Of a stretch of DNA of 64,000 nucleotides, positions 25,663 to 63,747 are shown one piece after another. The DNA comes from Clavaria fumosa (lineage: Eukaryota; Basidiomycota; Agaricomycetes; Agaricales; Clavariaceae): assembly GCA_951802425.1 (NCBI GenBank), contig OX637794.1, positions 930,001 through 994,000 on the forward strand, given 5' to 3'. A model generated the notes under the pieces. That model did no database searches. It was not told the DNA's origin and was given only the letters and a program-made list of their open reading frames with translations. Both the position numbers and the translations under genes were made by a program. Positions within the stretch are counted from its first letter, which is position 1. Every line of letters starts with the position of its first letter.

Positions 25663-28600
25663 TTACATAGACTCTCTGCTTGATCCAAGTATCCTCTTCC
25701 TCACTTCTACCACTTGCACTTCTAGACTCTCTGCTTGATCCAACTTCCCCTGACTCCTGTATGTGGCTGCCAGATTGGCAATACTTTCCAAAGTGTCTGG
25801 GTGTTCTGGCCCAAGTATCCTTTTCCTCACTTCTACCACTTGCACTTCTAGACTCTCTGCTTGATTCAACTTCCCCTGATTCCTGTATGTGGATGCCAGA
25901 TTGGCAATACTTTCCAAAGTGTCTGGGTGTTCTGGCCCAAGCATCCTTTTCCTCACTTCCACCACTTGCACTTCTAGACTCTCTGCTTGATTCAACTTCC
26001 CCTGATTCCTGTATGTGGATGCCAGATTGGCAATACTTTCCAAAGTGTCTGGGTGTTCTGGCCCAAGCATCCTTTTCCTCACTTCCACCACTTGCACTTC
26101 TAGACTCTCTGCTTGATCCAACTTCCCCTGATTCCTGTATGTAGCTGCCAGATTGGAAATACTTCTCAAAGTGTCTGGGTGTTCTGGCCCAAGCATCCTT
26201 TTCCTCACTTCCACCACTTGCACTTCTAGACTCTCTGCTTGATCCAACTTCCCCTGATTCCAGTATGTGGCTGCCAGATTGGCAATACTTTTCAAAGTGT
26301 CTGGGTGTTCTGGCCCAAGTATCCTCTTCCTCACTTCCACCACTTGCACTTCTAGACTCTCTGCTTGATCCAACTTCCCCTGATTCCTGTATGTAGCTGC
26401 CAGATTGGCAATACTTTTCAAAGTGTCTGGGTGTTCTGGCCCAAGTATCCTCTTCCTCACTTCCACCACTTGCACTTCTAGACTCTCTGCTTGATCCAAC
26501 TTCCCCTGATTCCAGTATGTGGCTGCCAGATTGGCAATACTTGACAAAGTGTCTGGGTGTTCTGGCCCAAGTATCCTCTTCCTCACTTCTACCACTTGCA
26601 CTTCTAGACTCTCTGCTTGATCCAACTTCCCCTGACTCCTGTATGTGGCTGCCAGATTGGCAATACTTTCCAAAGTGTCTGGGTGTTCTGGCCCAAGTAT
26701 CCTCTTCCTCACTTCTACCACTTGCACTTCTAGACTCTCTGCTTGATCCAACTTCCCCTGACTCCTGTATGTGGCTGCCAGATTGGCAATACTTTTCAAA
26801 GTGTCTGGGTGTTCTGGCCCAAGTATCCTCTTCCTCACTTCTACCACTTGCACTGCTAGACTCTCTGCCTGATCCAACTTCCCCTGACTCCTGTATCTGG
26901 CTGCCAGATTGGCAATACTTTTCAAAGTGTCTGGGTGTTCTGGCCCAAGTATCCTCTTCCTCACTTCCACCACTTGCACTTGTAGACTCTCTGCTTGATC
27001 CAACTTCCCCTGATTCCAGTATGTGGCTGCCAGATTGGCAATACTTTTCAAAGTGTCTGGGTGTTCTGGCCCAAGTATCCTCTTCCTCACTTCCACCACT
27101 TGCACTTGTAGACTCTCTGCTTGATCCAACTTCCCCTGATTCCAGTATGTGGATGCCAGATTGGCAATACTTTCCAAAGTGTCTGGGTGTTCTGGCCCAA
27201 GTATCCTCTTCCTCACTTCTACCACTTGCACTTCTAGACTCTCTGCTTGATCCAACTTCCCCTGACTCCTGTATGTGGCTGCCAGATTGGCAATACTTTT
27301 CAAAGTGCCTGGGTGTTCTGGCCCAAGTATCCTCTTCCTCACTTCCATCACTTGCACTTCTAGACTCTCTGCTTGATCCAACTTCCCCTGACTCCTGTAT
27401 GTGGCTGCCAGATTGGCAATACTTTCCAAAGTGTCTGGGTGTTCCGGCCCAAGTATCCTCTTCCTCACTTCTACCACTTGCACTTCTAGACTCTCTGCTT
27501 GATCCAACTTCCCCTGACTCCTGTATGTGGCTGCCAGATTGGCAATACTTTTCAAAGTGCCTGGGTGTTCTGGCCCAAGTATCCTCTTCCTCACTTCCAT
27601 CACTTGCACTTCTAGACTCTCTGCTTGATCCAACTTCCCCTGACTCCTGTATGTGGCTGCCAGATTGGAAATACTTTTCAAAGTGTCTGGGTGTTCTGGC
27701 CCAAGCATCCTTTTCCTCACTTCCACCACTTGCACTTCTAGACTCTCTGCTTGATCCAACTTCCCCTGATTCCAGTATGTGGCTGCCAGATTGGCAATAC
27801 TTGACAAAGTGTCTGGGTGTTCTGGCCCAAGTATCCTCTTCCTCACTTCCATCACTTGCACTTCTAGACTCTCTGCTTGATCCAACTTCCCCTGATTCTT
27901 GTATGTAGCTGCCAGATTGGCAATACTTTTCAAAGTGTCTGGGTGTTCTGGCCCAAGCATCCTCTTCCTCACTTCCATCACTTGCACTTCTAGACTCTCT
28001 GCTTGATTCAACTTCCCCTGATTCCTGTATGTGGATGCCAGATTGGCAATACTTTCCAAAGTGTCTGGGTGTTCTGGCCCAAGCATCCTTTTCCTCACTT
28101 CCACCACTTGCACTTCTAGACTCTCTGCTTGATCCAACTTCCCCTGATTCCTGTATGTAGCTGCCAGATTGGAAATACTTCTCAAAGTGTCTGGGTGTTC
28201 TGGCCCAAGCATCCTTTTCCTCACTTCCACCACTTGCACTTCTAGACTCTCTGCTTGATCCAACTTCCCCTGATTCCTGTATGTAGCTGCCAGATTGGAA
28301 ATACTTTTCAAAGTGTCTGGGTGTTCTGGCCCAAGCATCCTTTTCCTCACTTCCACTACTTGCACTTCTAGACTCTCTGCTTGATCCAACTTCCCCTGAT
28401 TCCAGTATGTGGCTGCCAGATTGGCAATACTTGACAAAGTGTCTGGGTGTTCTGGCCCAAGTATCCTATTCCTCACTTCCATCACTTGCACTTCTAGACT
28501 CTCTGCTTGATCCAACTTCCCCTGATTCCTGTATGTGACTGCCAGATTGGCACTACTTAACAAAGTGTCTGGGTGTTTTGCCCCAAGGATCCTATTGCAC

Positions 28601-30379
28601 ATATGCCTTGCATGCATATAATGTGTTGCTGCTTCCTTGTAATAACTATTCACAAAGTACACCAATCCTAAACTACTCTCTTCCAGAATACCCTTTTCTT
28701 CATCAATCATCTGTGTGGTAATGTTCACAGTTTTGCAATGTCCCTCATTTTTAAAAATGTGTGGCATGAGTAACTTGCAATATCTGTAGTCTTCAGCAGT
28801 CCTTGGCCATGTGATTGAATGACACAGCATTCTCCTTGTCATAAGACAACTTATCTGCTGGTCCATCCTTGACAATCTATCCCAGCTCCACAAGTGCACC
28901 AATGGGTGCATAGAGTAGATATTGCCTTCCAGACTCTTGATAAGGGAAAATGATAACAAGATGGCAATCCCTTCCCTCAACCAAGCATTATCCCATTTGC
29001 CTTCCTTGTTTATTTGTAGCAATGTAGCATGAAATTTTGAGAATGCTTCTGATACATGTCTCCTTTGCTTTCTGCCCCTGGATATAGAGGAGACCATCCT
29101 CTGGAACAGCTTGACTTCTTTGGCTCTCCTATCAGTCACTGAATTGACTGCTGCTCTTTGGAATATCTCTTCTGATATACTTTCATGATGAAGTGAAGAA
29201 AATATTTGTAGCAGGAGGATGGCACTCTTGGCAGCCTGGAGATTCTTGCTGTTTTCTTGTCCTGCAGCTCTGGCTGCTATGGCTTGGAATGACAGGTCCC
29301 ATGTCCCATACACTGCCTGACCATAGTTTGATGCTCCCCTGAATGATGGATGTGCTAGCAGATCATGATGATGTTGCTGATATTTCCCAAGGTATTCACC
29401 AAGGTCACAGAGACCAGAAGCAATATATGCTCCAGCTTGGTCAACTGCCAAAGGCAAACAGCATAATTCAGCCACAACAGGCTGAGAGGTGTTCCTCAAT
29501 GATTCAGCAAATTCATCAAGGAATGCAGCCTTCAATAGTAAAGATATTGCTTCCTGCTCCTCCATCTTCTCAACCTCCTCCCATGCCTGAGGATGCACAG
29601 TGCGGCGCACATCTGGATTTCTGCTTGTGATCAACAAGTTTCCATGACTGCCTCTGGGAGTGAACTTGGAGAGCATGTCAAGATCACTTGCATTGTCAAA
29701 TACAAGTATCCAGTTCTCCTTGGCAGTGTAAGACAGCCACAGGAGCACAGACTCCACAGAGCTTTGGACTCCGCATGACCGAGCAGCAGGGACTTCTGCG
29801 ATGTCTTTGACACTTTGCTCAGCAGTCTCGTTGTTGGTCGCATCAATCCAAAACACTTCCCAGAACCTGGCAGGATTGGTGAGATTGACAGGACCAGTGC
29901 CGGAGCAGACCAGACTCACAAATCCCTGTTCTGTTCAACAAATCTCAAACAAATCTGAGTCTTCCCCGCACCACCCATTCCATATAGCAGAAATTGTTTC
30001 TGGCACTCGATCGGCATGCTGAAGTGATCTCGGAGTCTGTCTAGATAGCCTTCACGCCCAGTGAAGAGAGGACTGGACGGAGGCATCAAGCGGTATGGAG
30101 TCCTTGGCTGTAATTGTTTGGGCACATTGGCAGCAGCCTGATCTACGTTTCAGGTGAGAAACGGACTTGTATGATTCTACGTATATGATATTGTTCCTAC
30201 TCACTGTAAATGGTGTAAGTATTGATTGTTCTGTTATCAACGATGCTGAGGTTATTACTACCAACATCGCCGCCGCGACCAGTTGCACTGGACGTATCTA
30301 GAGAGAAGAATCAATATCATGCGGCACGAGACCATGCAGGCTACTCACTGATTGTTGCGAAACTGAAGTCTTGACTCAT
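25663..30379 (-). CDS. NB-ARC/TPR protein (NLR-like receptor), four exons, 1516 aa
   Basis: Exons: 30,379-30,349, 30,297-30,205, 30,142-29,920 and 29,866-25,663; introns are GT...AG of about 51-62 bases and the frame is continuous. The N-terminus is short (~85 residues), Asn/Thr rich, with no effector domain recognised. The NB-ARC has Walker A Gly96-Met-Gly-Gly-Ala-Gly-Lys-Thr103, Walker B Trp-Ile-Leu-Val-Phe-Asp173, an Ile-Thr-Ser-Arg block, a Leu-Pro-Leu-Ala segment and an MHD-like Met-His-Pro-Leu-Val-His. From about residue 545 come 23 TPR units of 42 residues built on LGPEHPDTL..SIANLAATY and GKLDQAESLEVQ. Units differ at a few positions only. In fungi such proteins act in self/non-self recognition and programmed cell death, with the repeats as sensor; that is family knowledge. 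A 25-base tail after the last unit is frameshifted and ends in TAA. A truncated duplicate lies at about 32.0-32.5 kb. Confidence 0.85.
25680..28600. repeat. 126-bp tandem repeat array (23 units) encoding the TPRs
   Basis: Units are nearly identical in DNA, so unequal exchange can change copy number. Encoded residues vary at fixed positions: Arg-Ile/Met before Leu-Gly, Lys/Glu/Arg/Ser after Thr-Leu, Ala/Ser-Asn, and Arg/Trp/Lys-Asn/Ser before Gln-Gly-Lys. Some units are identical in protein (for example 21/22 and 9/11 counted from the N-terminal side). Confidence 0.9.
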
Positions 30380-42797: not shown

Positions 42798-44399
42798 CAG
42801 TGACTCACAAAACAGTTCCAATGTTTGGAACTTTTCAATTAATTAGAGTGTAGCTCATGAAGAAATTTAGATAGAATTATGAAAATGTTTATCAAAATGG
42901 GACACTATATAGGCCATAATCATACCAATTTTCAAAATACTTCATCCATGTTTGCCTGACATATGAACATTTTTCTTCAGGGGTATCATTGGAACAGTTT
43001 TGTTGCAGGTGGACTTTGGCTACCAAAGCATTAAATCTAGTATTTAGTGTAGCCCCCTTTTGCTTTGAGCACTGCCTGAATCCTCCTAGGCATGCTCTCA
43101 ATGAGTCTTTGACACTCTACTGTGTCAATCTTGTTCCACTCCTCCTCTACCCTCTCCCACATCCCCCCAGGTGCCCTCTCATACTCTCCCAGCTTTCTCT
43201 TCAGGTGACCCCACAAATGTTCAATTGGATTAAGGTCAGGAGACTGTGCTGGCCATGCAAGAACCTTCAGGCCATTCTCCTGGATCCATGTTTGTGCCTT
43301 TTTGCATTTGTGCTTAGGATCATTATCCTGCTGAAAGATGATGTCAGCTGGCAATTTGTCATAATACCTGATGCTGGCTTGGAGGTCTTCTTCCAAAATC
43401 TTGCAGTAAAGCTCCCCATCCATCCTCCCATCAATCCTGCATGCAAATCCAACTCCCTCCCACAGAATGCACCCCCACACCATCACAGACCCTCCACCAA
43501 ACTTGAGTGTTCCCTCAATAAGCCTATCATTCAAGCCCTCCCCAGCCCTTTTCCAAGCCCACTTCTTCCCATCTGAGCCCAGATGATTTATTTTGGTCTC
43601 ATCAGACCATACAACTCTCTTCCAGTCCTCCAAAGTCCAGTGGTGTGCCAAGGCAAAATCCAACCTCTCCTTTCTGTGCCTCTTGGAGAGAAGGGGCTTC
43701 TCCTTCTTCACCACAGCCTTCATACCTGCTTTCTTCAGGCTACGACGCACAGTCTGGGCAGAGAGAGGCTGGTTGGTGATGTTGGTAAGGGTTTTGGCCA
43801 CATCCACAGCAGTACTAGCCCTCCCAGAGCCAATAAGATGGACAGCATGGCAAATATTGGTGCTGGAAAGCTTAGCAGGGCAACCTCCAAGAGACTTAGA
43901 GAGGTGAGGGCGATGTTTAGAGCGAAGCCTAGAGATGCTGGAAAGGCCATGGCCAGTGGAGGATGCTATAGACCTAGTAGAGTGGCCAGCATCCAGCATA
44001 GAAAGTATTTGGTTTTGTCAGATGGTGTAAGTGGGTGCATGACCAAGTGTGGGGTGTCAACTGTACCAGAAGCCTTGTATATATACACCAGCATGGTCTG
44101 ATCATGTGACACTGTTGAAACAACATAAATATGCCCAAACAATCAACAAAGTCATATGATTCTGTCTATTTTATCATGTTAGTTTCACCTGCAACAAAAC
44201 TGTTCCAATGTCACCCCTTAAGAGAAATGCACATATCTCAGTGAAGGGTTACTGAAGAATTTTTAAAATTGGTACGATTATGGCCTATATAGTGTCCCAT
44301 TTGGATAAATATTTTCATAATTTTATCTAAATTTCTTCATGGGTTACACTCTAATTAATTGAAATGTTCCAAACATTGGAACAGTTTTGTGAGTCACTG
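42798..44399 (-). mobile_element. Tc1-type transposon, 1602 bp, ~215-bp inverted repeats
   Basis: The ends are CAGTGACTCACAAAAC...GTTTTGTGAGTCACTG, with TA on both sides (42,796-42,797 and 44,400-44,401). It is inserted in a minisatellite unit (GCTTGCACA-TA-TATTAGC). The inverted repeats are imperfect and about 215 bp. The outer 15 bp match the fold-back element at 20,750. Confidence 0.9.
43037..43999 (-). CDS. Tc1-type DD34E transposase, nearly complete, 320 aa
   Basis: A single frame with an N-terminal helix-turn-helix region (Leu-Asp-Ala-Gly-His-Ser-Thr-Arg-Ser-Ile) and a second HTH (Thr-Asn-Gln-Pro-Leu-Ser-Ala-Gln-Thr-Val). Catalytic residues are the Asp of Trp-Ser-Asp-Glu-Thr, the Asp of Gln-Gln-Asp-Asn-Asp-Pro-Lys-His, and Glu 35 residues later in Asn-Pro-Ile-Glu-His-Leu-Trp, giving DD34E. 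The family normally starts about 15 residues earlier. An upstream ATG near 44,032 opens a fitting segment (Met-His-Pro-Leu-Thr-Pro-Ser-Asp) but is one base out of frame, so either the start is the ATG at 43,999 or one indel has shifted the N-terminus. Cut-and-paste transposition at TA is family knowledge. Confidence 0.85.
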   Translation of the reverse strand: MLDAGHSTRSIASSTGHGLSSISRLRSKHRPHLSKSLGGCPAKLSSTNICHAVHLIGSGRASTAVDVAKTLTNITNQPLSAQTVRRSLKKAGMKAVVKKEKPLLSKRHRKERLDFALAHHWTLEDWKRVVWSDETKINHLGSDGKKWAWKRAGEGLNDRLIEGTLKFGGGSVMVWGCILWEGVGFACRIDGRMDGELYCKILEEDLQASIRYYDKLPADIIFQQDNDPKHKCKKAQTWIQENGLKVLAWPAQSPDLNPIEHLWGHLKRKLGEYERAPGGMWERVEEEWNKIDTVECQRLIESMPRRIQAVLKAKGGYTKY

Positions 44400-44934
44400 T
44401 ATATTAGCATAATTCTGCACACATTTGCATAAGCTTGCACATATATTAGCATAAGCTTGCACAAATATGCATAAGCTTGCACATACATTAGCATAATTCT
44501 GCACAAATTTGCATAGGCTTGCACATATAATAGCATAATCCTGCACAAATCAGCATAAGCTTGCACATAAATTAGCATAATTCTGCACAAATTTGCATAG
44601 GCTTGCACATATAATAGCATAATTCTGCACAAATTTGCATAGGCTTGCACATATAATAGCATAATTCTGCACAAATCAGCATAAGCTTGCACATATATTA
44701 GCATACATTTGCACACACAGGGCCAATATTGACACATGTGCCCATGCATGGACACATATGCACATTCATGGATGCTCATGCCCATGCATGTAAATGAATG
44801 GGCACACATGTACACAGATGGACATGTGTGTACATACATGTCCATGCATGTCCATACATGCACACATGTGTGCATGCATGTCTGGAAGCATAATTTACCA
44901 AAGATATGAATTTTGTCCAGTTTGGTCCTTCATA
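44400..44934. repeat. minisatellite and right inverted-repeat arm of the 6-kb element
   Basis: Reverse complement of the left arm: first the 42-bp units (GCACATAATAGCATAATTCT type), then the CATGCATG-rich part, then the end CCAGTTTGGTCCTTCATA at 44,934, followed by GTAAAAG at 44,935-44,941. Confidence 0.8.
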
Positions 44935-48298: not shown

Positions 48299-48505
48299 TG
48301 GCTGGAGCCTTGATTATCCGCAAATCTACGGACTCACCTCTGGTCGATGCGGACACGGAACCTGTACCCAAATACGAGACTCCAGCCATCTTTTCTACTT
48401 CCGTTCAAAATTTCTCATCGTCTTCCCTTGTAAATTTAGCACCTCCCGATCCCATTCCCAGTATCAGTTTCTCGGACGTTTCTCTTGATTCCGTTGATTC
48501 CCCGG
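48298..48505 (+). CDS. pol N-terminus, copy A (first part of split gene)
   Basis: From the overlapping ATG at 48,298 (-1 frame relative to gag), about 69 codons to the insertion point of copy B. It ends with the segment Asp-Ser-Val-Asp-Ser-Pro, resumed at 58,388. Confidence 0.8.
48502..48505. repeat. target duplication of copy B, left (CCGG)
   Basis: CCGG here and CCAG at 58,384-58,387 flank copy B. Removing the insert and one copy restores the Asp-Ser-Pro-Val-Ala-Ile frame of pol. Confidence 0.7.
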
Positions 48506-49423
48506 TGTAGTGGGTATTACGGTTCTTGCTGCAACTGCTTGATTACAGTCAAGTCCTTCAGGGGTTCCTGTAAGGCGTTAGAGATTCACCAAACACCCTT
48601 GAGGATGTGGAGTATGAATTCAAAATGTGTGAGAAATAGAAATATACGGTGTCCGGGATATTCTGCTATGTGTCCGATAAAATCCGATAAGGATGGTGCG
48701 ATAAGACGAAGGGCCGGCAACGACGGAGGCCAGCGGATCGAAGGTTGCGACGACGGGTGAGCTTAGGTGAGGTTTCTAACAGAGAGAAGGGGTTTAGAAA
48801 GCTGTATTTCAGAGAGGTCCGGAGTGTACTTAAGTACAGTTCTGTAAGTACAGCAAATTGGAATGTACGGAAATGTCCGGAAAACACATGGAACAGCGCC
48901 ATGTCGCGTGAAGGGTTACATGAAGGAGTTATATCACAAGGGAAATGAGTAGCTCGGAGGAATGAAATGTCCGATAACTAGCAAATGTCCGGACCGCTCA
49001 TAAACTGAAGGAAAGTGGGGCTGGTACAGCAAAGGGGTACTAAGAACAATGGACAAGGTACTGCAAAGGGTTTGAAACGTTTAAACGATTGAATGGTTGA
49101 AAGGGATCATAATATGAAATTTACAGCATGGTATATGAAATAAAGGAATGGGAATGGAATAGTGTGTATGTCGAGCGCTGACCGTGCTGGAGAGGTGAAA
49201 TAGAGAGGCGTGGGCGGTGTGTGAGAGCGGTGGGCTGTGATCGTCACGGGGGATTGAAGACCGAAGTGTCCGACATCGGACATGTATCGGATACTATCGG
49301 TCGTTATCGGACGGTGTCGGATCGTTATCGGTTCGTATCGCACGTAATTTCTTTGGATCGCAAAACATCCGGATAGTCGGTATCTGTCATGTTTCCGTGT
49401 TTAGATCGCATATGGTCCTTACA
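48506..49423 (-). repeat. 3' LTR of copy B, 918 bp
   Basis: In minus orientation it starts TGTAAGGACCATATGCG and ends CCCACTACA. Against the 5' LTR the visible difference is a 2-base indel (GGGGGATTG against GGGGATG). Confidence 0.9.
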
Positions 49424-49438
49424 TTCTCCCGGGGGCTG
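49424..49438 (-). other. polypurine tract of copy B
   Basis: On the minus strand the LTR is preceded by CAGCCCCCGGGAGAA, the same as before the 3' LTR of copy A (63,892-63,906). The GGGAGAA end is the likely plus-strand DNA primer. Confidence 0.55.
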
Positions 49439-49580
49439 AAAATGCAACCGCCCTCGGTTGCAACCAAACAAGGCCAAATAACGGTTTGTTGATCGTGAAG
49501 TACGCGTCGTGTGGGTGCACATAGGTCCAAACACACCCTTGTGTTTTCTCCAGCGACAGCAACACGTCAACTCTCCGACA

Positions 49581-51133
49581 ATGGAAAACTTCGATTCTTC
49601 AATCTTTCGAAACGCAGTCCAGGCGATGACCGAGGCGCAGGCCATGGCGCCGGGCGAGGAGTTGCCGGATCGGGGGCAGGATGGAGAGTGCGCGGAGTGG
49701 GTGGGGACGTATGCGGGTGACGCGGTGCGTGAACGAGAATCTTTCGTACTTTTTTTTGTATCGCACTGACGACGTTTTTAGGACGATTTTCTTGCCGGAT
49801 ATGTGGCAGCGATCGACGACGACGTGGAGGTGGACGAGGGACTCGTCCGGGTCGCGCGAAGGCTCAAGAAGTGGCGGAAGCTCCGCGGGGACGAGTGGTC
49901 CGCTGAGCGGACGAGAAGGCGGGAGGAGGTCGAGGCCGAGAAACAGCGCACGAGCGAGGAGAGGGCGGCTACTGAGCGGGCCGCAGCAGAGGCGGAGGCG
50001 GAGGAGAGGCGGGCGGAGGCGGCGAGGGCTGCCGAGAAGAGGGCGCGCCTTGCCCGGGCGCGCTTAATTGTCGTATGTGACAGCGACGACGAGGGCGAGG
50101 CGGCGGCGGCGGCAACAACGACGACGACGGGAGCGGCGGAGTCCGGTGCAGCGGCGGTAACAACGACGACGATATCACCGGACGCCGGAGAGCTGCGTGT
50201 GGACGAGGTGGCGGCAGGGGAGGATCCGGACGGTCATCGGACCGTGTGGGGAACCGACGGGGTGACGCCCGTCGGTGTTATCGAGGCGGCGGCGGTGAGT
50301 GCGGTGGCCGGGGGAGGCGAGCAGTCGGTGGAGGAGCCGATGTTCGTGCACCGGGACGGTGCGCGGATGATGGCGACTCCGGTGTGGGTGGAGATCGCGA
50401 GGCGGAAGGCAGCGGAGCGAGGGCGAGGGAGGAGAGGCGGGGCGAAGAGCGACATAGAGTCCCGGGCTGCGCGGCAGCCTGGAGATAAGGTGAGTGGTTA
50501 ATTAAGATATGTGAGGCTTTTTCGACATCTGATATAATGATTAGGAGCACGTTCCGGGGTGCAAGGAGTGCACCCGGAAGTGGCGGGCGTGCTACGGAGT
50601 GGAGGGGATAGCGTGCCGGTGGTGCCGGACGTATAAGGTATCGTGCAGTCTGTCGGCTGTGCGAGGTAAGTGGTATTCTTTTTATTTTTCATGATGAGAC
50701 AAATGATAGGTGTGTTTCAGGAGCGAAAACAGAGAGAGCGGCGGTGTCCGGAACGGAAGGTATGTCGAGAAGGTATCGGGTCCGCATTTGCTAACGTATC
50801 GGAACAGGTCCGAAGGCGGCGGGAGCGAGCGGAAGTAAGAGGCCGAGGCGAGGTGCGACGCGGGTACCGGTTCGCGAGGAGACGACGCCGGAGGAGGAGG
50901 ACGAGATTGAGGAGGATACCAGTGTGGAGCTGGTGGAGGAGCCGCCGGCAAAGAAGAAGAAGGCGGAGGCGGGACCAAGTCGGAAGGGTAAGGAGCGGGA
51001 GGTGGCGCGAGGGGTGTCCGGGAGGGAGGCGCTCGATAGGGCGCTGGAGATGATGGAGAGGGGGGCGGACCAGGTGAAGGCCGGAGCGGAGCTGCTCCGG
51101 ATGCTCCTCCTTGGCGAGTCGTCCTCTAAGTAA
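49581..51133 (+). CDS. antisense accessory gene of copy B: Zn(II)2Cys6-type, coiled-coil protein, five exons, 445 aa
   Basis: Exons: 49,581-49,724, 49,782-50,489, 50,545-50,665, 50,721-50,759 and 50,808-51,133, with GT...AG introns of 48-57 bases. It runs opposite to gag-pol, converging on pol with 213 bases between stops and starting just inside the 3' LTR. Residues ~70-140 are Arg/Glu/Ala-rich, coiled-coil-like. A Thr/Ala-rich stretch follows. Exon 3 carries C290-x2-C293-x6-C300-x7-C308-x2-C311-x6-C318, the spacing of a fungal Zn(II)2Cys6 DNA-binding cluster with basic residues between the first cysteines. Then come a basic Lys-Arg-Pro-Arg-Arg patch, an acidic run, a Lys4 patch, and a C-terminal amphipathic helix ending Leu-Leu-Arg-Met-Leu-Leu-Leu. 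Copy A has the same five exons with lengths differing by multiples of three. Likely nuclear; a transcription-factor or chromatin role is inference. Confidence 0.8.
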
Positions 51134-51346: not shown

Positions 51347-54300
51347 TTAATGGCGAGGCCGAAGGTTCCGGGTTGCTCCGGAGCGTTGCGGACGAGTTTC
51401 CGCAGTGTCGTCGTCGGTGGTTTCATTATCGGATTCATCGGATAGGTCAGCCGCTTGGTTTTGCTCATCTTCTCTGTCGATAGAGTTGGGTGACGCCTCG
51501 TGTATTTGATAGGGAGAGATGTCCTCGTTTATCTCCGTCGTTTGGTCGATGATAGAAGTGACCGGAATCGATGTTTGCGACCTCGGATAGTAGGGAATGA
51601 TGCGGAAAGCTGCGTAGTGGATTTTGGAAACGGCGCCGTCGAGTTCCGAGAGAATATAGGCGCCATATTGTGTTCGGCGAACGACGATCATCGGTCCGAA
51701 GAATCGCGGTTTTGTTTTTCGATTTAATTCCATTTCAACGGCCGAATTGCGGATCAATACCAACGATCCGGGTTGGAAGTCGTAGTCGATAATAGACTTC
51801 CGGTGTGCGTCGATGAACTGCTTGACGGATTGTTTGCGGGCAGCGAGCACTTTATCGGCGATTGTTGCTAGATCTTCTTCTCGTTTTTGCAGTTGGCGGG
51901 CACGAAGGGCTATCAGTTCCGGAGTGGTCATCGGGGCGTCGGCGGTCGGAATTAAATATGTTGCTTCGGATATGTCGAAGGGGAAAAGCGGTTCGACGCC
52001 ATGTGCGATGTAAAATGGGGAGTGGCCGGTGGACCGTTGGATCGTGGTTCGTTCTGCCCAAATGACTGAGGGTAAAACGTCCGGCCATTTCGATTCGTCT
52101 CCATCTGCTGCTTTGATTAACGACTCACGGACCGATCGATGGGCACGTTCGATGACGCCGTTAGCGCGGGAGTTGTATCCGGATATACGGATGTGATGGA
52201 TTCCGTACCGTTTCTTAAGGAAATCGAGGGCTTTGATAAATGGGGCTCCGTTATCCGTGATAATCTCTTCTACTGCTCCCCATCGGCATAGTATATCTTC
52301 GAATATGAAGGTTCCGAGAAGTCGGGCGGTCTCGTTTCGTAGCGGTCTTGCTTCCGGATATGCGGATAACGAGCATCGGGCGTGGACGAGAAGTCGGAAA
52401 CCGCGGGCTCTTGGTAGGAACATAGTATCAATGTGCGCTCGACGGAAAAGACCGGCCGGTGTAGCGACCGTCGGTGGAATGAAGATCTTCCGGATTTGCC
52501 GAGTTTGGCATTGGTGACAAGTTTTGACAAACCATTTTACGTCTTGATCCAGCACCGGCCACCAGAACCGATTTAGAATACGTGTCCGGATAACGTAAAC
52601 GCCTTTGTGGCCGAGTGAATCGTGTGCCTCTGTGATAATTGCGAGACGTTTGTGGTCCGGAGGTACTACTTGGTGGTATCCGTTAGGTCGGCGACGCCAT
52701 AATTTGTCATCTAGGATGAAGAACTCGGATGCGGAGCGGACCAGTCGTCGGAACTGGTTTGCGTCAATGCCAGAGGGACAGATCGGGTTTCGAAGGAAAG
52801 ATTCAATTTTGCGAATCTGTTCTTCTCTTTTGTTTGCTGCATCGGATCGGGGTATAAGGACGGCGGAAGATTCGTTCGGGGTCGGTGATTCCTCGGGTGG
52901 TACCGTCGAATTGAGTAGCGTCGATCCTGTGTAAACTTTGAAGCGAGTATGGGTGATGCCGGCGAGTCGTGTCTCGGATGTGTAGGAAGCGTCCGGTGCT
53001 CGATTCATGTGTTCCATGGCGAATACGTAGCTCCGATCGATCCATTCTTCGTGATCTTCAGACTCGGTATCTTCTTCACCATCTGCGGCACGTCGGCGTG
53101 ATAGTCCGTCGGCTCCGGTGTGCTTATCTGCGGGAATATGAACAAGATCGAAATCGAAGAGTAGTATACCGGCAATCCATCGATTCATGGCAGCGTTGGG
53201 TTGAATGTCCGGATTGTTTAGCATACCCTTAATGAACTTCGCGTCCATTTCGACAGTAAATTTCGGAAGGCCTATAAGGTAAATCCGGTACGACCGAAGT
53301 GCGCGGAAGAGTCCGTATAAATCGATTTTTGCTTGTGAGTATCGGGCCTCGCGTTCGTTCCAGGTAATGGAGCCAAAGCGGGAGGGATATCGTATTCCAT
53401 CTTCTCCAATTTGGAAGAGTGCGAAACCAACGGCGATATTTGATGAGTCGACGGCGAGGATTACGGGTTGTCCGGAGCGGTAGTCGATTGGTCGGATGGC
53501 GGATGAGTTCAGAATCGCGTGTTTGAGTCGGTCCATCGAGTTTTGTTCTTCTTTTTCGAATCTGAATGGCACGTCCTTGCGAGTTAGACTGACAAGAGGT
53601 CGGGCAAGTACGGCGTAGTTTTTAATGAATATCCGGAGTAGTCCGCAAACCCCTAAAAATGATCGGACATCGGTCAGGGTTTTGCAAGGAGGCCAGTCCC
53701 GGATACGCTGAACGTTGGAGGCATCCGGAACTCGTCCTTCGTATGTGCACGTATGTCCGGTAACGACTGCTTCGGGAACGCAAATTGTCGTTTTCTTGCC
53801 GTTAAAGGTTCCTCCGACTTTCTTGATTCGTTGGAGCACCCGGTTGACGTTATTTAAATGCTCCCAAACAAATCGTCGTATTTGCGGATTCTCAGGGATC
53901 GTCTCGTAGGTGCCGTCCGGAAGCTCGTATCGGGTTTCCGGGCCCTTGATCGCTACATCGTCTACGAATGGGATGGTTACGTGCGGAATTTCATCTTGTA
54001 GAACATGCGTGACGTCTCCATGCATAATCTGCGTCGCGTTGGTGTATCCCATGGGGACGCAGGTGAGCTGTTTTGCTCCGAGAGGGGTTTGAAACGTGGT
54101 GAGGTCTCGGCTTCGTTCGTCCAGAGACCGCTGATCGAAGGAGACGAAAAGGTCGAGTGATCCGTAACATCCGCGTCCGGCGAATGATTCCGCAAAAACC
54201 TCCATTATCGGGGGGACCGCGGAATCGCCGATAGTGATTTTGTTAAGCGGCTGGAGGTTGTGCACGAGTCGGAGAGACTTTCCGTCTTTCTTTAACACGC

Positions 54301-55084
54301 AAAACCACTGGGACCGATAAGAAGAGTTGGATTCTTCATAAACGCCGGCTGCGATCTTTTCCTGGATTACTTTGAGAACTTCGTCGTAAATACCGGGGGG
54401 AATCGGTATATTTTTGAAGATCCAAGGGATATGTTCGACTGTCGGGATAATAATCGGATCGAAGTATTTTGCGTCGAATCGTCCTTTTTCGGTCTCTTTC
54501 CAAGCGAAGGCGTCTTCCTGGGCTTTAATAAGATGGTGAACGAGTTTTTCTTCCTCCGGCCATAAGAATCCGGTGGGGTTGGCGTTGTGCGTGTCTTTCC
54601 GGTTTTGAGTGTATCGAAGACCGGGGGTGAAATCGGGGGGATGGGTCGGAAGAGTTGGCATATCGGCTAGGGGGTCCGGGTGTCGGCGTCGGACAATCCG
54701 GAATTCTTTGGGTACTGTCGCTTTGATCGGATTGACGCGATTCGCGACTTTCTTATATTTCTTTCCCAAGTAAACTGGAAGAACGGCGTCCGTAGACAGG
54801 GAATTTATTTCGGGGGTTTTGTTGTACAAGGGGGTTGCAACATTTGGACGCGTCGGTTCACGTCCGATAGCGACTGGGGAATCAGCGGAATCGAGAGAAA
54901 CGTCCGAGATACTGATACAGGGGAAGGGGTCGAGAGAGACTGGGTTTATAAGGGAAAACGATAAGGGAACGTGAACGGAAGTAGGAAAAATGGCTGGAGT
55001 CTCGTATCTGGGTATAGCTTCCGTGTCCGCATTGATCGGAGGTAAGTCCGTTGGTTTGCGGACATTCGAGGCTCCAGCTCTCAA
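51347..55084 (-). CDS. pol (reverse transcriptase, RNase H, integrase), copy B, 1245 aa
   Basis: The frame opens at the end of gag in the -1 frame at a TTTTTGA string; copy B has no ATG there, so frameshifting is likely. RT: Ser-Leu-Asp-Leu at ~309-312 and catalytic Phe-Val-Asp-Asp at 373-376, with Phe replacing the usual Tyr. RNase H: Ala-Val-Asp-Ser-Ser-Asn and an Ala-Lys-Ile-Asp-Leu-Tyr-Gly segment. Integrase: His-Lys-Gly and Cys-His-Gln-Cys zinc region, Ala-His-Ile-Asp-Thr, Ile-Thr-Asp-Asn-Gly-Ala-Pro-Phe and Asn-Gly-Val-Ile-Glu-Arg-Ala. The C-terminus is acidic and then basic, with no chromodomain seen. The frame has no interruptions. Confidence 0.95.
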   Translation of the reverse strand: MRAGASNVRKPTDLPPINADTEAIPRYETPAIFPTSVHVPLSFSLINPVSLDPFPCISISDVSLDSADSPVAIGREPTRPNVATPLYNKTPEINSLSTDAVLPVYLGKKYKKVANRVNPIKATVPKEFRIVRRRHPDPLADMPTLPTHPPDFTPGLRYTQNRKDTHNANPTGFLWPEEEKLVHHLIKAQEDAFAWKETEKGRFDAKYFDPIIIPTVEHIPWIFKNIPIPPGIYDEVLKVIQEKIAAGVYEESNSSYRSQWFCVLKKDGKSLRLVHNLQPLNKITIGDSAVPPIMEVFAESFAGRGCYGSLDLFVSFDQRSLDERSRDLTTFQTPLGAKQLTCVPMGYTNATQIMHGDVTHVLQDEIPHVTIPFVDDVAIKGPETRYELPDGTYETIPENPQIRRFVWEHLNNVNRVLQRIKKVGGTFNGKKTTICVPEAVVTGHTCTYEGRVPDASNVQRIRDWPPCKTLTDVRSFLGVCGLLRIFIKNYAVLARPLVSLTRKDVPFRFEKEEQNSMDRLKHAILNSSAIRPIDYRSGQPVILAVDSSNIAVGFALFQIGEDGIRYPSRFGSITWNEREARYSQAKIDLYGLFRALRSYRIYLIGLPKFTVEMDAKFIKGMLNNPDIQPNAAMNRWIAGILLFDFDLVHIPADKHTGADGLSRRRAADGEEDTESEDHEEWIDRSYVFAMEHMNRAPDASYTSETRLAGITHTRFKVYTGSTLLNSTVPPEESPTPNESSAVLIPRSDAANKREEQIRKIESFLRNPICPSGIDANQFRRLVRSASEFFILDDKLWRRRPNGYHQVVPPDHKRLAIITEAHDSLGHKGVYVIRTRILNRFWWPVLDQDVKWFVKTCHQCQTRQIRKIFIPPTVATPAGLFRRAHIDTMFLPRARGFRLLVHARCSLSAYPEARPLRNETARLLGTFIFEDILCRWGAVEEIITDNGAPFIKALDFLKKRYGIHHIRISGYNSRANGVIERAHRSVRESLIKAADGDESKWPDVLPSVIWAERTTIQRSTGHSPFYIAHGVEPLFPFDISEATYLIPTADAPMTTPELIALRARQLQKREEDLATIADKVLAARKQSVKQFIDAHRKSIIDYDFQPGSLVLIRNSAVEMELNRKTKPRFFGPMIVVRRTQYGAYILSELDGAVSKIHYAAFRIIPYYPRSQTSIPVTSIIDQTTEINEDISPYQIHEASPNSIDREDEQNQAADLSDESDNETTDDDTAETRPQRSGATRNLRPRH

Positions 55085-57078
55085 AAATCCGGATGCGGTT
55101 TCTTGTTCTTCAAGGATTTGCGGATCGGGATTCGCTCCTTCGTTGGCACTATGATTCTTTCTCCGGTGTTTGGATCGTTGAGAATAAGGTCCTGGGCCCC
55201 GTGGGGATGGTCAATCGTTTGGGAACCGGTTAACATGAAAAACGGTCGTCCGACAAGAACCTCGCAGGGCAACGTGTCTGCTACTTGCATTTGAACATGG
55301 AATGTGCACGGACCGATCTGTAGGGGGAAATTCTTGATGAGTCCGAGGGTCGGAGCGATGGTGCCATGAGAGGATTCCATGTGAATAACGTTCTCGGAGT
55401 GTAGTGGGTTGCCGAGTTTCTCCCAAACGTCTCTTCGCATTGCCACGATTGAGCTGCCTTGGTCGAGCAGGCACTCCGCGGCGATCCGGTTGTCCAATAT
55501 CCCTTCTACGATGCGGAGCGGAGCAGCGTCGACGGCGACAACAAGATCGGAGGTATCCGGGACCGTAATGTTTGTATAGAGCGTATCCTGTACGACGGAC
55601 GCGGTGACCGGAACGCGACGAGCGGTAACCACATCCTTCATCTTTTTGCGGATGTCTCCGGAAATGGCGAGTAGTTCGCGAGGTGTGACGCGGACTGGCA
55701 TGTCGAGTGCGCGATCGAATACTTGTTGAACGGTTACCGGATTTTCGATCGGAGCTTGGTAATGGTACTGGACGTCGGGTCGTTCGATTTTCTCCGGCTT
55801 TGATGGACGAGTGACCTGAGGCGGCGTAATAACAACGGCTGGTGGTGGCGGTAACCTAGATGGCTGAGGATCGGTATTCCTGGGTGTGGGTGCTTTCCTT
55901 TTGCCCTTGTCTACTTTCTTCGCGACATCGTTTGCAAAGGTGCGGACCATGTTTTCCAACACGGTATTCTCGTCATCTTCCTCGTCCGAATCGTCTTCCA
56001 TGTCCGGGGGGTGAGCGGATTGTCCGATCGGCTGTGCTTCAAATACCGCGGTTGTCGCCGGTTGCGTGTTCTGGGATTGGTATGTAGCGTAGTACTTGTC
56101 GAAGCGCTCGGATAGGTTGTTCCCTGAGATAGTGCCTGGCAAATATCGTCCGGAGGGGAGACAAATCCTGCCTTCTGTGTTCCGTATACATTTGCCGGAC
56201 TTAATGTATTCGAGGGCCTTCGGACAGGCACTAACAAAATGACCTATTTCCGAACAGAAATTACACGTCCGGCCTGCGGGAGAGTTCGTTGTCCGGGGAG
56301 CGGAGTGTCTTGCCGGTTCGAGAGATTGGGCTGTCAAAATCGATTCCAGGCGAGCCATTGTGGAAGCGAATGTTGCCCAGGCTGCGGACATATCAAATTC
56401 TTCCTTCTTGACTACCGGTTTCGTTTCTCTCCCGGGGGCTGAAGATGCGAGACGGACGGGTCCGGAAAGTTGATCGGTTGTCGCAGAGTGGGGGGACGTC
56501 GAGGAGAGAAGAAATTCAGCTGCACCATGTACTTCATTCATGGGGTAAGGATCCTCCGGATGGTGGTTTGGTAGTATGATAGCGAGTCGGCTTTCGATCC
56601 GACGCCTTGTATGATCCCCAAATCCGAGGATGTAAAGTCGGTTCCTGTCATTTGTGGACATACGCTGTGATGTGATCAAGTGCGAGGTGATCCGGAGAAA
56701 GTCCCGATAGTATTCTCCGTGTTCTGCGCGCGTGTAAACTCCCTTTTGGGCCGAGTCCGATATGAAACGGTCCAGGTCGGCGACGGAAAATAAGCGACCT
56801 CCATCAGATCCTGGATAAAGTCGTCGGACGGCCGCTTTGAAGGTATCCCACGTCCATACCGGGTCCGGGTCAGGTGAAAGAGTCTCCCAGAGGAGACACG
56901 TATCGGTGTCGAGATAGTGCTTGGCGTACCGAATTAAATCGGGTTCTGGAACGTCCGGGTTGACGCCGGTCAGCACGATGTCGATGTCCTCGAAGTACCG
57001 GTTGAGGTGTGTCGGTACTCCGTCAAAGGCAGGGGCCCCGTGGGCGCCACGGAGCGGATATCTCGGTTGGTTGGCCAT
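55081..57078 (-). CDS. gag with C-terminal aspartic protease, copy B, 665 aa
   Basis: Same length and layout as copy A. The ATG is at 57,078; CCHC knuckle CNFCSEIGHFVSAC; an acidic run and Lys-Gly-Lys-Arg-Lys; protease motif Leu-Leu-Asp-Gln-Gly-Ser-Ser. It overlaps the pol frame by four bases. An ATG-less conserved extension in the same frame continues upstream to the primer site. Confidence 0.92.
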   Translation of the reverse strand: MANQPRYPLRGAHGAPAFDGVPTHLNRYFEDIDIVLTGVNPDVPEPDLIRYAKHYLDTDTCLLWETLSPDPDPVWTWDTFKAAVRRLYPGSDGGRLFSVADLDRFISDSAQKGVYTRAEHGEYYRDFLRITSHLITSQRMSTNDRNRLYILGFGDHTRRRIESRLAIILPNHHPEDPYPMNEVHGAAEFLLSSTSPHSATTDQLSGPVRLASSAPGRETKPVVKKEEFDMSAAWATFASTMARLESILTAQSLEPARHSAPRTTNSPAGRTCNFCSEIGHFVSACPKALEYIKSGKCIRNTEGRICLPSGRYLPGTISGNNLSERFDKYYATYQSQNTQPATTAVFEAQPIGQSAHPPDMEDDSDEEDDENTVLENMVRTFANDVAKKVDKGKRKAPTPRNTDPQPSRLPPPPAVVITPPQVTRPSKPEKIERPDVQYHYQAPIENPVTVQQVFDRALDMPVRVTPRELLAISGDIRKKMKDVVTARRVPVTASVVQDTLYTNITVPDTSDLVVAVDAAPLRIVEGILDNRIAAECLLDQGSSIVAMRRDVWEKLGNPLHSENVIHMESSHGTIAPTLGLIKNFPLQIGPCTFHVQMQVADTLPCEVLVGRPFFMLTGSQTIDHPHGAQDLILNDPNTGERIIVPTKERIPIRKSLKNKKPHPDF

Positions 57079-57467: not shown

Positions 57468-58383
57468 TGTAGTGGGTATTACGGTTCTTGCTGCAACTGC
57501 TTGATTACAGTCAAGTCCTTCAGGGGTTCCTGTAAGGCGTTAGAGATTCACCAAACACCCTTGAGGATGTGGAGTATGAATTCAAAATGTGTGAGAAATA
57601 GAAATATACGGTGTCCGGGATATTCTGCTATGTGTCCGATAAAATCCGATAAGGATGGTGCGATAAGACGAAGGGCCGGCAACGACGGAGGCCAGCGGAT
57701 CGAAGGTTGCGACGACGGGTGAGCTTAGGTGAGGTTTCTAACAGAGAGAAGGGGTTTAGAAAGCTGTATTTCAGAGAGGTCCGGAGTGTACTTAAGTACA
57801 GTTCTGTAAGTACAGCAAATTGGAATGTACGGAAATGTCCGGAAAACACATGGAACAGCGCCATGTCGCGTGAAGGGTTACATGAAGGAGTTATATCACA
57901 AGGGAAATGAGTAGCTCGGAGGAATGAAATGTCCGATAACTAGCAAATGTCCGGACCGCTCATAAACTGAAGGAAAGTGGGGCTGGTACAGCAAAGGGGT
58001 ACTAAGAACAATGGACAAGGTACTGCAAAGGGTTTGAAACGTTTAAACGATTGAATGGTTGAAAGGGATCATAATATGAAATTTACAGCATGGTATATGA
58101 AATAAAGGAATGGGAATGGAATAGTGTGTATGTCGAGCGCTGACCGTGCTGGAGAGGTGAAATAGAGAGGCGTGGGCGGTGTGTGAGAGCGGTGGGCTGT
58201 GATCGTCACGGGGATGAAGACCGAAGTGTCCGACATCGGACATGTATCGGATACTATCGGTCGTTATCGGACGGTGTCGGATCGTTATCGGTTCGTATCG
58301 CACGTAATTTCTTTGGATCGCAAAACATCCGGATAGTCGGTATCTGTCATGTTTCCGTGTTTAGATCGCATATGGTCCTTACA
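57468..58383 (-). repeat. 5' LTR of copy B, 916 bp
   Basis: Starts TGTAAGGACCATATGCG at 58,383 (minus) and ends CCCACTACA at 57,468. Nearly identical to 48,506-49,423. Confidence 0.9.
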
Positions 58384-58387
58384 CCAG
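58384..58387. repeat. target duplication of copy B, right (CCAG)
   Basis: Pairs with CCGG at 48,502-48,505. The single difference is a CpG-to-CpA change. Confidence 0.7.
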
Positions 58388-62166: not shown

Positions 62167-63747
62167 TTATACAGTAAGGCGCTCACCAAGGAGAAGCATC
62201 CGGAGCAACTCGGCTCCGGCCTTCACCTGGTCGGCCCCCCTCTCCATCATCTGGAGCGCCTGCTCCAGCGCCTCTCTGACCGATGGTCCCGCCGCCGTCT
62301 CCCGCTCCTTTCCCTTCCGGCTAGGGCCCGCCTCTGCCTTCCTCCTCTTCGCTGACGGCTCCTCCACCAGCTCCACGCTGTCATCTTCAATTTCATCCTC
62401 CTCCTCCTCCTCCTCCTCCTCCGGCGTCGTCTCCTCGCGAACCGGTACCCGCGTTGCACCTCGCCTCGGCCTTTTGCTCGCGGTCGCTTCCGCCGCCTTC
62501 GGACCTACACCACTACGTTAGCCGATACAGATCCGGTACTCTCTTGACTTACCTCCGGCACTGGACACCGCGACCCTCTCGGCTTTCACCCCTGAAACAC
62601 ACCTTTTAGATTGATTCATCAAGAAATAAAAAGAATATTACTTACCTCGTACAGCCGAGAGACTGCACGACACCTTGTATGTCCGGCACCACCGGCACGC
62701 TATCCCCTCCACTCCGTAACACGCGCGCTGCTTCCGGGTGCACTCCTCGCAAGCCGGATCATGTTCCTATTCATTAGATCAGACACCCTAAACCTTCACA
62801 CATTTTAATCGACCACTTACCTTATCTCCAGGCTGCCGCGCAGCCCGGGACTTTATGTCCGCCCCCGCTCCGCTCCTCCTCCCTCGCCCCCACTTCGCCG
62901 CCCTCCGCCTCGCCATCTCCACCCACACCGGAGTCGCCGTCATCCGCCCGCCCACCCGAGCCTCCAACGTGAGGGGCTCCTCGACCGTCTGCTCGCCTTC
63001 CCTGGCCACCGCACTCACTGCCGCCGCCTCGATAACACCAATGGGCGTCACCCCGTCGGTTCCCCACACGGTCCGAAGACCGTCCCGATCTTCCGCCGCT
63101 GCCACCCATACCTTTCCTGTCTCCTCCTCCGCAGTCGCAACCTCGTCTCCACGCAGCTCCGCGGCGTCTGGCGATACCGTCGTCATCGCCGCTGCCATTG
63201 CGCCAGACTCCACCGCCCCCGTCATTGTTGTTGCTGTTGCCGCCGCCCCCCCACCGTCATCGTCGCTGTCACTGATCACAATGAGGCGCGCCCTCTTCTC
63301 GGCAGCTCTCGTCGCCTCCGTCCGCCTCTCCTCCGCCTCCGCCTCCGCTGCGGCCCTCTCGGCGGCCGCCCTCTCCTCGTCCGCACGTTCCTGTTCGGCT
63401 TCGGCCTCCTCCTGTTTCCTCGTCCGCTCGGCAGTCCATTCGTCCCCGCGGAGCCTTCACCACTTTTTGAGCCTTCGCGCGACGAGGACGAGTCCTTCGT
63501 CCACCTCCACATCATCGTCGATTGCGGCAACGTAGCCCGCAAGGAAATCATCCTGAAAACTTGTCAGTGCAAAGTCAAAAAGAAAGAAAGAAACAACACA
63601 CACCGCATCACCCCCATATATCTGCACCCACTCCGCGTATTCACTGTCCTGCCCCCGCTCCAGTAAATCCTCACCCGGCGCCATGGTCCGCGCCTCTGTC
63701 ATCGCCTGGACCGCGTTCCGGAAAACGATAGCGTCGAAGTTTTCCAT
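62167..63747 (-). pseudogene. antisense Zn(II)2Cys6-type accessory gene, copy A, one stop
   Basis: Exons: 63,747-63,604, 63,552-62,821, 62,766-62,646, 62,591-62,553 and 62,504-62,167. Lengths are 144/732/121/39/338 against 144/708/121/39/326 in copy B, so all differences are multiples of three. Splice sites and the six cysteines with spacing 2-6-7-2-6 are kept. A TGA at 63,459-63,457 replaces CGG of copy B early in exon 2. The acidic run is longer and the last residues differ. It runs opposite to copy A gag-pol. Confidence 0.78.

Follow-up and report, generated by a model that had tools for sequence, protein, structure and literature searches.

An intron-bearing antisense gene with a six-cysteine cluster in a Ty3/gypsy-type retrotransposon of Clavaria fumosa

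The basidiomycete Clavaria fumosa carries a Ty3/gypsy-type retrotransposon with an additional, spliced gene placed antisense to gag-pol. It is described here from a stretch of 64,000 nucleotides, referred to as the window (assembly GCA_951802425.1, contig OX637794.1, positions 930,001 to 994,000). Among the closest described systems is Boty of Botrytis cinerea and Sclerotinia, a fungal Ty3/gypsy element whose extra gene, brtn, is also placed between pol and the 3' long terminal repeat (LTR) on the strand opposite to gag-pol, as cited in PMC7264820; brtn of Boty, or BcGypsy1, is likewise cited in PMC8365987 and PMC4227169. The impression given by the initial annotation, that no fungal antisense gene had been described before, is not supported. 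Compared by description only, the two elements differ in their hosts, Boty residing in ascomycetes, and in the CHROMO domain of Boty gag-pol (PMC4227169), for which the Pfam search of the element proteins studied here gave no chromodomain match.

A conserved antisense open reading frame (ORF) between pol and the 3' LTR is also found in plant elements of the Retand/Tat type and in Grande. Antisense ORFs of the TRP28 type, for which DNA binding is predicted, occur in nearly all Retand clusters (PMC11963269), while gene23 of Grande, RIRE2 and PvRetro13 have antisense ORFs in the same position (PMC7264820). Nuclear localisation and an own promoter were reported for Grande gene23 and a regulatory role was proposed (PMC7264820). 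The gene of C. fumosa differs from the Retand and Grande ORFs, as these are presented in the main texts of PMC11963269 and PMC7264820, where the word "intron" is absent, by its four introns and its cluster of six cysteines (Cys6). No match to the TRP28 domain (PF04195) was obtained in the element proteins up to an E-value of 1.

HBZ of human T-cell leukaemia virus (HTLV) type 1 is a spliced antisense gene of the 3' end that codes for a nuclear regulator with a basic leucine zipper. It provides an analogy only, without Cys6 cluster and without relationship to the C. fumosa gene. In HTLV an antisense promoter is localized within the 3' LTR (PMC7264820). An intron-bearing or zinc-cluster antisense gene was not found for fungal LTR elements in the literature searched, subscription journals excepted, which leaves its absence unproven. 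The C. fumosa gene is accordingly presented as a variant: there are precedents for where it lies, how it is oriented and what role is proposed for it, and the introns and the Cys6 cluster appear to be new. The function of the antisense accessory ORFs that recur in unrelated LTR elements is an open question (PMC7264820, PMC11963269), for which the present case offers a signal of selection that is unusually strong, together with a defined spliced protein and a testable zinc-cluster domain, with about 35 near-identical copies in a type of fungal host practical for reporters and gene removal.

The antisense gene and the selection acting on it

The gene is carried by copy B of the element, which is 9.9 kb long and read from the minus strand, between pol and the 3' LTR. 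It spans positions 49581-51133 of the plus strand and has five exons and four GT-AG introns, yielding a product of 445 amino acids. The spliced coding sequence of 1338 nucleotides (nt) consists of 445 codons and the stop; intron stops close the frame when the region stays unspliced. The intact spliced gene put forward by the initial annotation was recovered exactly, from the start ATG at 49581 through all exons and introns to the TAA at 51131-51133:

49581-49724, + strand: exon 1, 144 nt, begins with ATG
49725-49781, + strand: intron 1, 57 nt, GT-AG
49782-50489, + strand: exon 2, 708 nt, with an N-terminal conserved part, a charged Ala/Glu/Arg-rich stretch, an Ala/Thr-rich linker and a VWGTDGVTPVGVI block
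50490-50544, + strand: intron 2, 55 nt, GT-AG
50545-50665, + strand: exon 3, 121 nt, with the Cys6 cluster
50666-50720, + strand: intron 3, 55 nt, GT-AG
50721-50759, + strand: exon 4, 39 nt
50760-50807, + strand: intron 4, 48 nt, GT-AG
50808-51133, + strand: exon 5, 326 nt, with KRPRR and KKKK basic patches, an acidic stretch, a conserved C-terminal helix and the TAA stop

A search for a YTRAY branch-like match in intron 3 of copy B found none.

The gene of copy B was aligned with those of 20 further B-type copies and of 22 diverged copies that differ from B by 20-26% (copy A, which surrounds copy B, L034 and L037-L056). GT and AG are retained at the four introns in all 43 rows, B included. 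Among B and the diverged copies all 16 splice columns are invariant versus 61 of the 199 other intron columns (p = 2e-8 in a hypergeometric test that ignores relatedness). Gaps relative to B are multiples of three in 117/123 cases in exons (34/40 distinct gaps), versus 26/138 in introns and 33/92 in flanks, and the six exceptions in exons are single frameshifting indels in six decayed copies. Divergence is 0.27-0.40 at third codon positions and 0.10-0.22 at first and second positions. Measured against B, the ratio of non-synonymous to synonymous substitution rates (dN/dS) lies between 0.22 and 0.30 for 16 diverged copies chosen for net frame, with exclusion of L034, L039, L043, L044, L048 and L055. 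Between B and A it amounts to 0.25 for the antisense gene (bootstrap 0.20-0.34), 0.13 for pol and 0.08 for gag. Constraint falls on the N-terminal part, on the Cys6 exon and on the C-terminal part; the Ala/Thr-rich linker and residues 217-283 are relaxed. The open frame is kept in 19 of the 20 further B-type copies. Because gaps come in threes, divergence concentrates at third positions, splice sites are kept and dN/dS is low, the aligned sequences show purifying selection on both the protein and its splice sites between subfamilies.

Several observations weigh against this interpretation. Within the B family (20 copies) 9 synonymous and 20 non-synonymous changes were counted, with no stop change. 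Pairwise dN/dS among eight chosen open copies spans 0.22-0.54, and its upper values belong to close pairs (0.46-0.54) or to comparisons with L053. A premature stop is absent in only 8 of the 22 diverged copies, two of which have no ATG. A dN/dS near 1 across copies, named in the initial annotation as a refuting result, is roughly reached only within the young B family and not in the comparisons between subfamilies. Selection on the replicating lineage followed by drift of each inserted copy is expected to give such a pattern of young and decayed copies.

All 43 aligned rows have introns, in line with the earlier proposal that the gene travels with them. The introns are copied along in retrotransposition, since the genomic RNA is complementary to the gene and does not present its splicing signals. 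The element shows in this way how antisense orientation can pass an intron-bearing gene intact through an RNA intermediate. It is a natural mirror of the antisense-intron marker that is used in retrotransposition assays.

Two further features of the alignment were observed. The start codon column has ATG in 18 of the 22 non-B copies and AAG in four (L038, L041, L047 and L049), which come from two sublineages and in which AAG ends a lengthened run of A; this looks like homopolymer slippage, perhaps in reverse transcription. Residues 201-283 in exon 2 have a synonymous divergence of 0.2-0.3 versus 0.6-0.8 in most other segments, which could reflect a nucleic-acid signal or recombination between subfamilies.

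The element, its copies and its insertion sites

The genome to which the window belongs (48.8 Mb, 17 contigs) was searched for copies of the gene and of pol. Whole-gene matches with at least 93% identity number 36 among those listed, besides many diverged copies. When the merged lists of 100 gene places and 104 pol 3' ends were compared, 78 of the gene places faced a listed pol 3' end within 2.5 kb, at a distance of 202-281 bp in 70 of these 78 pairs; within 1.5 kb of a listed pol, no gene was found next to it in the same orientation. For 22 gene places and 26 pol places the lists contained no partner. Five of these 26 pol places were read and all five have gene parts in the expected orientation, incomplete in three (L058, L059 and L060). 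Among five of the 22 partnerless gene places that were read, L062 and L065 continue into pol-region sequence, the gene of L064 is joined to a gag-pol piece following a deletion, and L063 and L066, which belong to a more distant subfamily, are undecided as to pol within the 2.2 kb read. No free-standing gene copy was found among these five. Gene and pol distances are correlated (Spearman 0.82 for 11 loci, with 55 non-independent pairs). Judged by this linkage, the antisense gene belongs to the element lineage.

The carrier is assigned to the Ty3/gypsy type from its predicted features, namely paired LTRs with TG...CA ends and the order reverse transcriptase (RT) - RNase H - integrase in pol. The two LTRs of B differ by no mismatch and by two gaps. 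The older copy A lies on the plus strand from 45005 to beyond the window end. The features are:

48506-49423, - strand: 3' LTR of element B, 918 bp, TG...CA
49424-49540, no strand assigned: spacer from the 3' LTR to the antisense ATG, unusually conserved non-coding DNA
51347-55084, - strand: pol ORF coding for RT, RNase H and integrase
55081-57078, - strand: gag-protease ORF, with zinc knuckle and aspartyl protease matches under the Pfam cut-offs
57468-58383, - strand: 5' LTR of element B, 916 bp
62167-63747, - strand: the same antisense gene in copy A, with one in-frame stop at codon 80 (exons 63604-63747, 62821-63552, 62646-62766, 62553-62591 and 62167-62504)

In pol the RNase H (residues 510-638) and H2C2 integrase (808-864) matches exceed their Pfam cut-offs, RVT_1 (265-445) with 29.4 bits is barely under its cut-off of 29.6 and rve_3 is far under; every Pfam match of gag is under cut-off.

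The spacer has a mean divergence of 0.04-0.09, versus 0.19 for the adjoining LTR end and about 0.24-0.36 for introns. It likely holds the sense polypurine tract, which could account for part of this conservation; an antisense promoter or 5' untranslated region could account for the rest.

Insertion follows a strict rule. The 4 bp adjoining the 3' LTR have CG at positions 2-3 (NCGN) in 22 of 22 distinct B-type insertions, while CG makes up 4.8% of flank dinucleotides (sites examined: 48502-48505 and 58384-58387 of the window; L001-L021, L028 and L059; L067-L085; L100-L109). An exact 4-bp target site duplication is present in 16 of the 19 copies tested at both ends, the other three being without one readable end. 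Copy A has ACGC at both ends. The diverged copies, A included, show NCGN in 6/9 and NCAN in 3/9, a tenth being without a readable end. The NCAN sites fit decay of CpG. Copy B in the window has no exact duplication, its two flanks being CCGG and CCAG. Sequence-specific integration has been attributed exclusively to errantiviruses, with TATA, CGCG and ATAT as targets (PMC5408687). In view of that exclusivity, as worded there, a Ty3-type element of a fungus that has TG/CA ends and always inserts at a central CG merits a study of its own, and strict CG-centred insertion stands as a second testable trait of the element.

The protein and its possible roles

The cysteines of exon 3 (CKECTRKWRACYGVEGIACRWCRTYKVSC) follow the pattern C-x2-C-x6-C-x7-C-x2-C-x6-C, that is, the 2-6-7-2-6 spacing noted in the initial annotation. 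All six are present in 28 of 28 exon-3 loci examined; one young copy is without one of them. The basic and acidic patches and the C-terminal helix that were read from the sequence are also borne out: basic stretches begin at residues 77, 134, 348 and 386, an acidic stretch EEEDEIEED occurs, and the AlphaFold2 model of exon 5 has a single C-terminal helix at exon-5 residues 71-105. In this model the predicted local distance difference test (pLDDT) is 80-85 for the block up to residue 100, with a whole-model mean of 66.4 and a predicted template modelling score of 0.23.

The consensus spacing of Zn(II)2Cys6 proteins is C-x2-C-x6-C-x5..12-C-x2-C-x6..8-C. The antisense protein fits this spacing. 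Its designation as Zn(II)2Cys6-type stands as far as spacing and profile-profile comparison go: in hhalign against five host Zn_clus domains the cluster obtained 74% probability and an E-value of 2.7e-5 (single comparison) with all six cysteines aligned. It fails at the Pfam Zn_clus profile (PF00172), whose cut-off of 21 bits was missed with 11.2 bits for exon 3 of the window and 13.6 bits for a typed composite. These alignments cover positions 2-32/33 of the 39-position profile; with the whole antisense protein there was no Zn_clus match up to an E-value of 1. Zn(II)2Cys6 proteins have their cluster at the N terminus, while here it lies in mid-protein, and its second half (CRWCRTYKVSC) has unusually many conserved aromatic and basic residues. 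Membership in this family is suggestive only.

The sole Pfam match of the whole protein, FIT1_2 (E-value 0.05, far under its cut-off), was rejected as spurious, and so were two chance matches to a phage coat protein (E-value about 4) in a PDB sequence search with the exon-3 profile. When viral contigs were searched with the alignment of exon 2, 120 pattern stretches came up, none of them a relative. Six metagenome proteins (P0001-P0006) were found in the protein database; they match exon 2 only and come without organism or context.

The interpretation preferred here, which we hold at about an even chance, is that of an intron-bearing accessory gene of a Ty3/gypsy-type lineage encoding a nuclear DNA-binding regulator of the element. 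The LTR, or else the conserved spacer before the ATG, would contain an antisense promoter that drives a transcript of the gene. Its splicing and translation would give a protein of the nucleus in which a Cys6 cluster binds zinc and which also has basic and acidic stretches and, at its C terminus, a helix for interaction. This protein would bind element DNA, in the LTR or the spacer, and promote or tune transcription of the element or counter its silencing. Since selection has preserved this likely DNA-binding product, a helper protein has probably evolved within the element itself.

A real accessory factor might act instead in the replication cycle, for instance in binding of genomic RNA or Gag, in nuclear import or in tethering of the pre-integration complex to its target, a possibility that we regard as the main rival, though as less probable. 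The same evidence for selection applies to it, and cysteine clusters with basic stretches are able to bind RNA or protein too. The insertion site of the element is very strict and target recognition is therefore a feature of the lineage; a strict 4-bp target with central CG is, however, explained most simply by the integrase alone, and supply of a structural part by an own antisense transcript and splicing would be an unusual route.

Capture of a host gene, which the element would carry along as a passenger or to serve the host, appears unlikely, though as an account of origin it is conceivable. Nuclear genes typically have introns, which makes a genome a more probable source of the gene than a sense-orientation RNA copy, and fungal genomes hold Zn_clus genes, at 16 places in this one. 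None of these 16 coincides with a gene place, however, none of the partnerless gene places that were read proved free-standing, and constraint across subfamilies favours use by the element.

Zn(II)2Cys6 proteins typically bind CGG, and plant VANC is a transposon-encoded anti-silencing factor. The Cys6 protein could conceivably be the antisense-encoded reader, on the part of the element, of CG-containing sites, steering integration complexes to such sites or shielding the CG-rich DNA of the element from methylation and silencing, but this is a speculation to which little probability is attached. If true, it would couple two unusual traits of the lineage, strict CG-centred insertion and its survival in a genome where the old copies seem to have undergone CpG decay, and in its anti-silencing form it would be a fungal counterpart of VANC.

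It is very improbable that the antisense transcript acts as RNA, in control by double-stranded or small interfering RNA, with an open frame of little importance. Such roles of retrotransposon antisense transcripts are discussed in PMC7264820 and the spacer before the ATG is conserved, but the coding signal of gaps, codon positions, splice sites and dN/dS strongly disfavours this explanation, and the sense-strand frames of exon 5 are inconsistently open across copies. Although G+C-rich exons yield long open frames on both strands and the sense frame opposite exon 2 is open in most copies (with two stops in copy B), chance frames combined with chance splice signals have a negligible likelihood, being refuted by the comparative data on splice sites, dN/dS, gaps and cysteines, provided that the alignment is right. 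An env-like reading of the sense strand was rejected, since the sense frames opposite exon 5 have stops in most copies.

Other features of the window and the genome

A 1418-amino-acid ORF at 25663-29919 (- strand) has 23 TPR_10 matches built on a repeat of 126 bp, the inner copies of which share about 94-98% identity. It looks like a repeat-homogenised tetratricopeptide repeat protein, which we take to be perhaps of the fungal NLR kind. A Tc1/mariner-type transposase ORF (HTH_Tnp_Tc3_2 and DDE_3) is found at 43037-43999 (- strand), adjoined by tandem repeats spaced by 42 bp around 44400-44715.

Near-identical decayed pol copies with 82-83% identity to B, mostly with 5 TGA, lie close to contig ends, for example L057 (C14), C7:43485, C13:1877934 and C10:3294301, which suggests spread by subtelomeric duplication. 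A first look at other Ty3 lineages of the genome gave 1,542 H2C2 candidates, of which 150 were scored.
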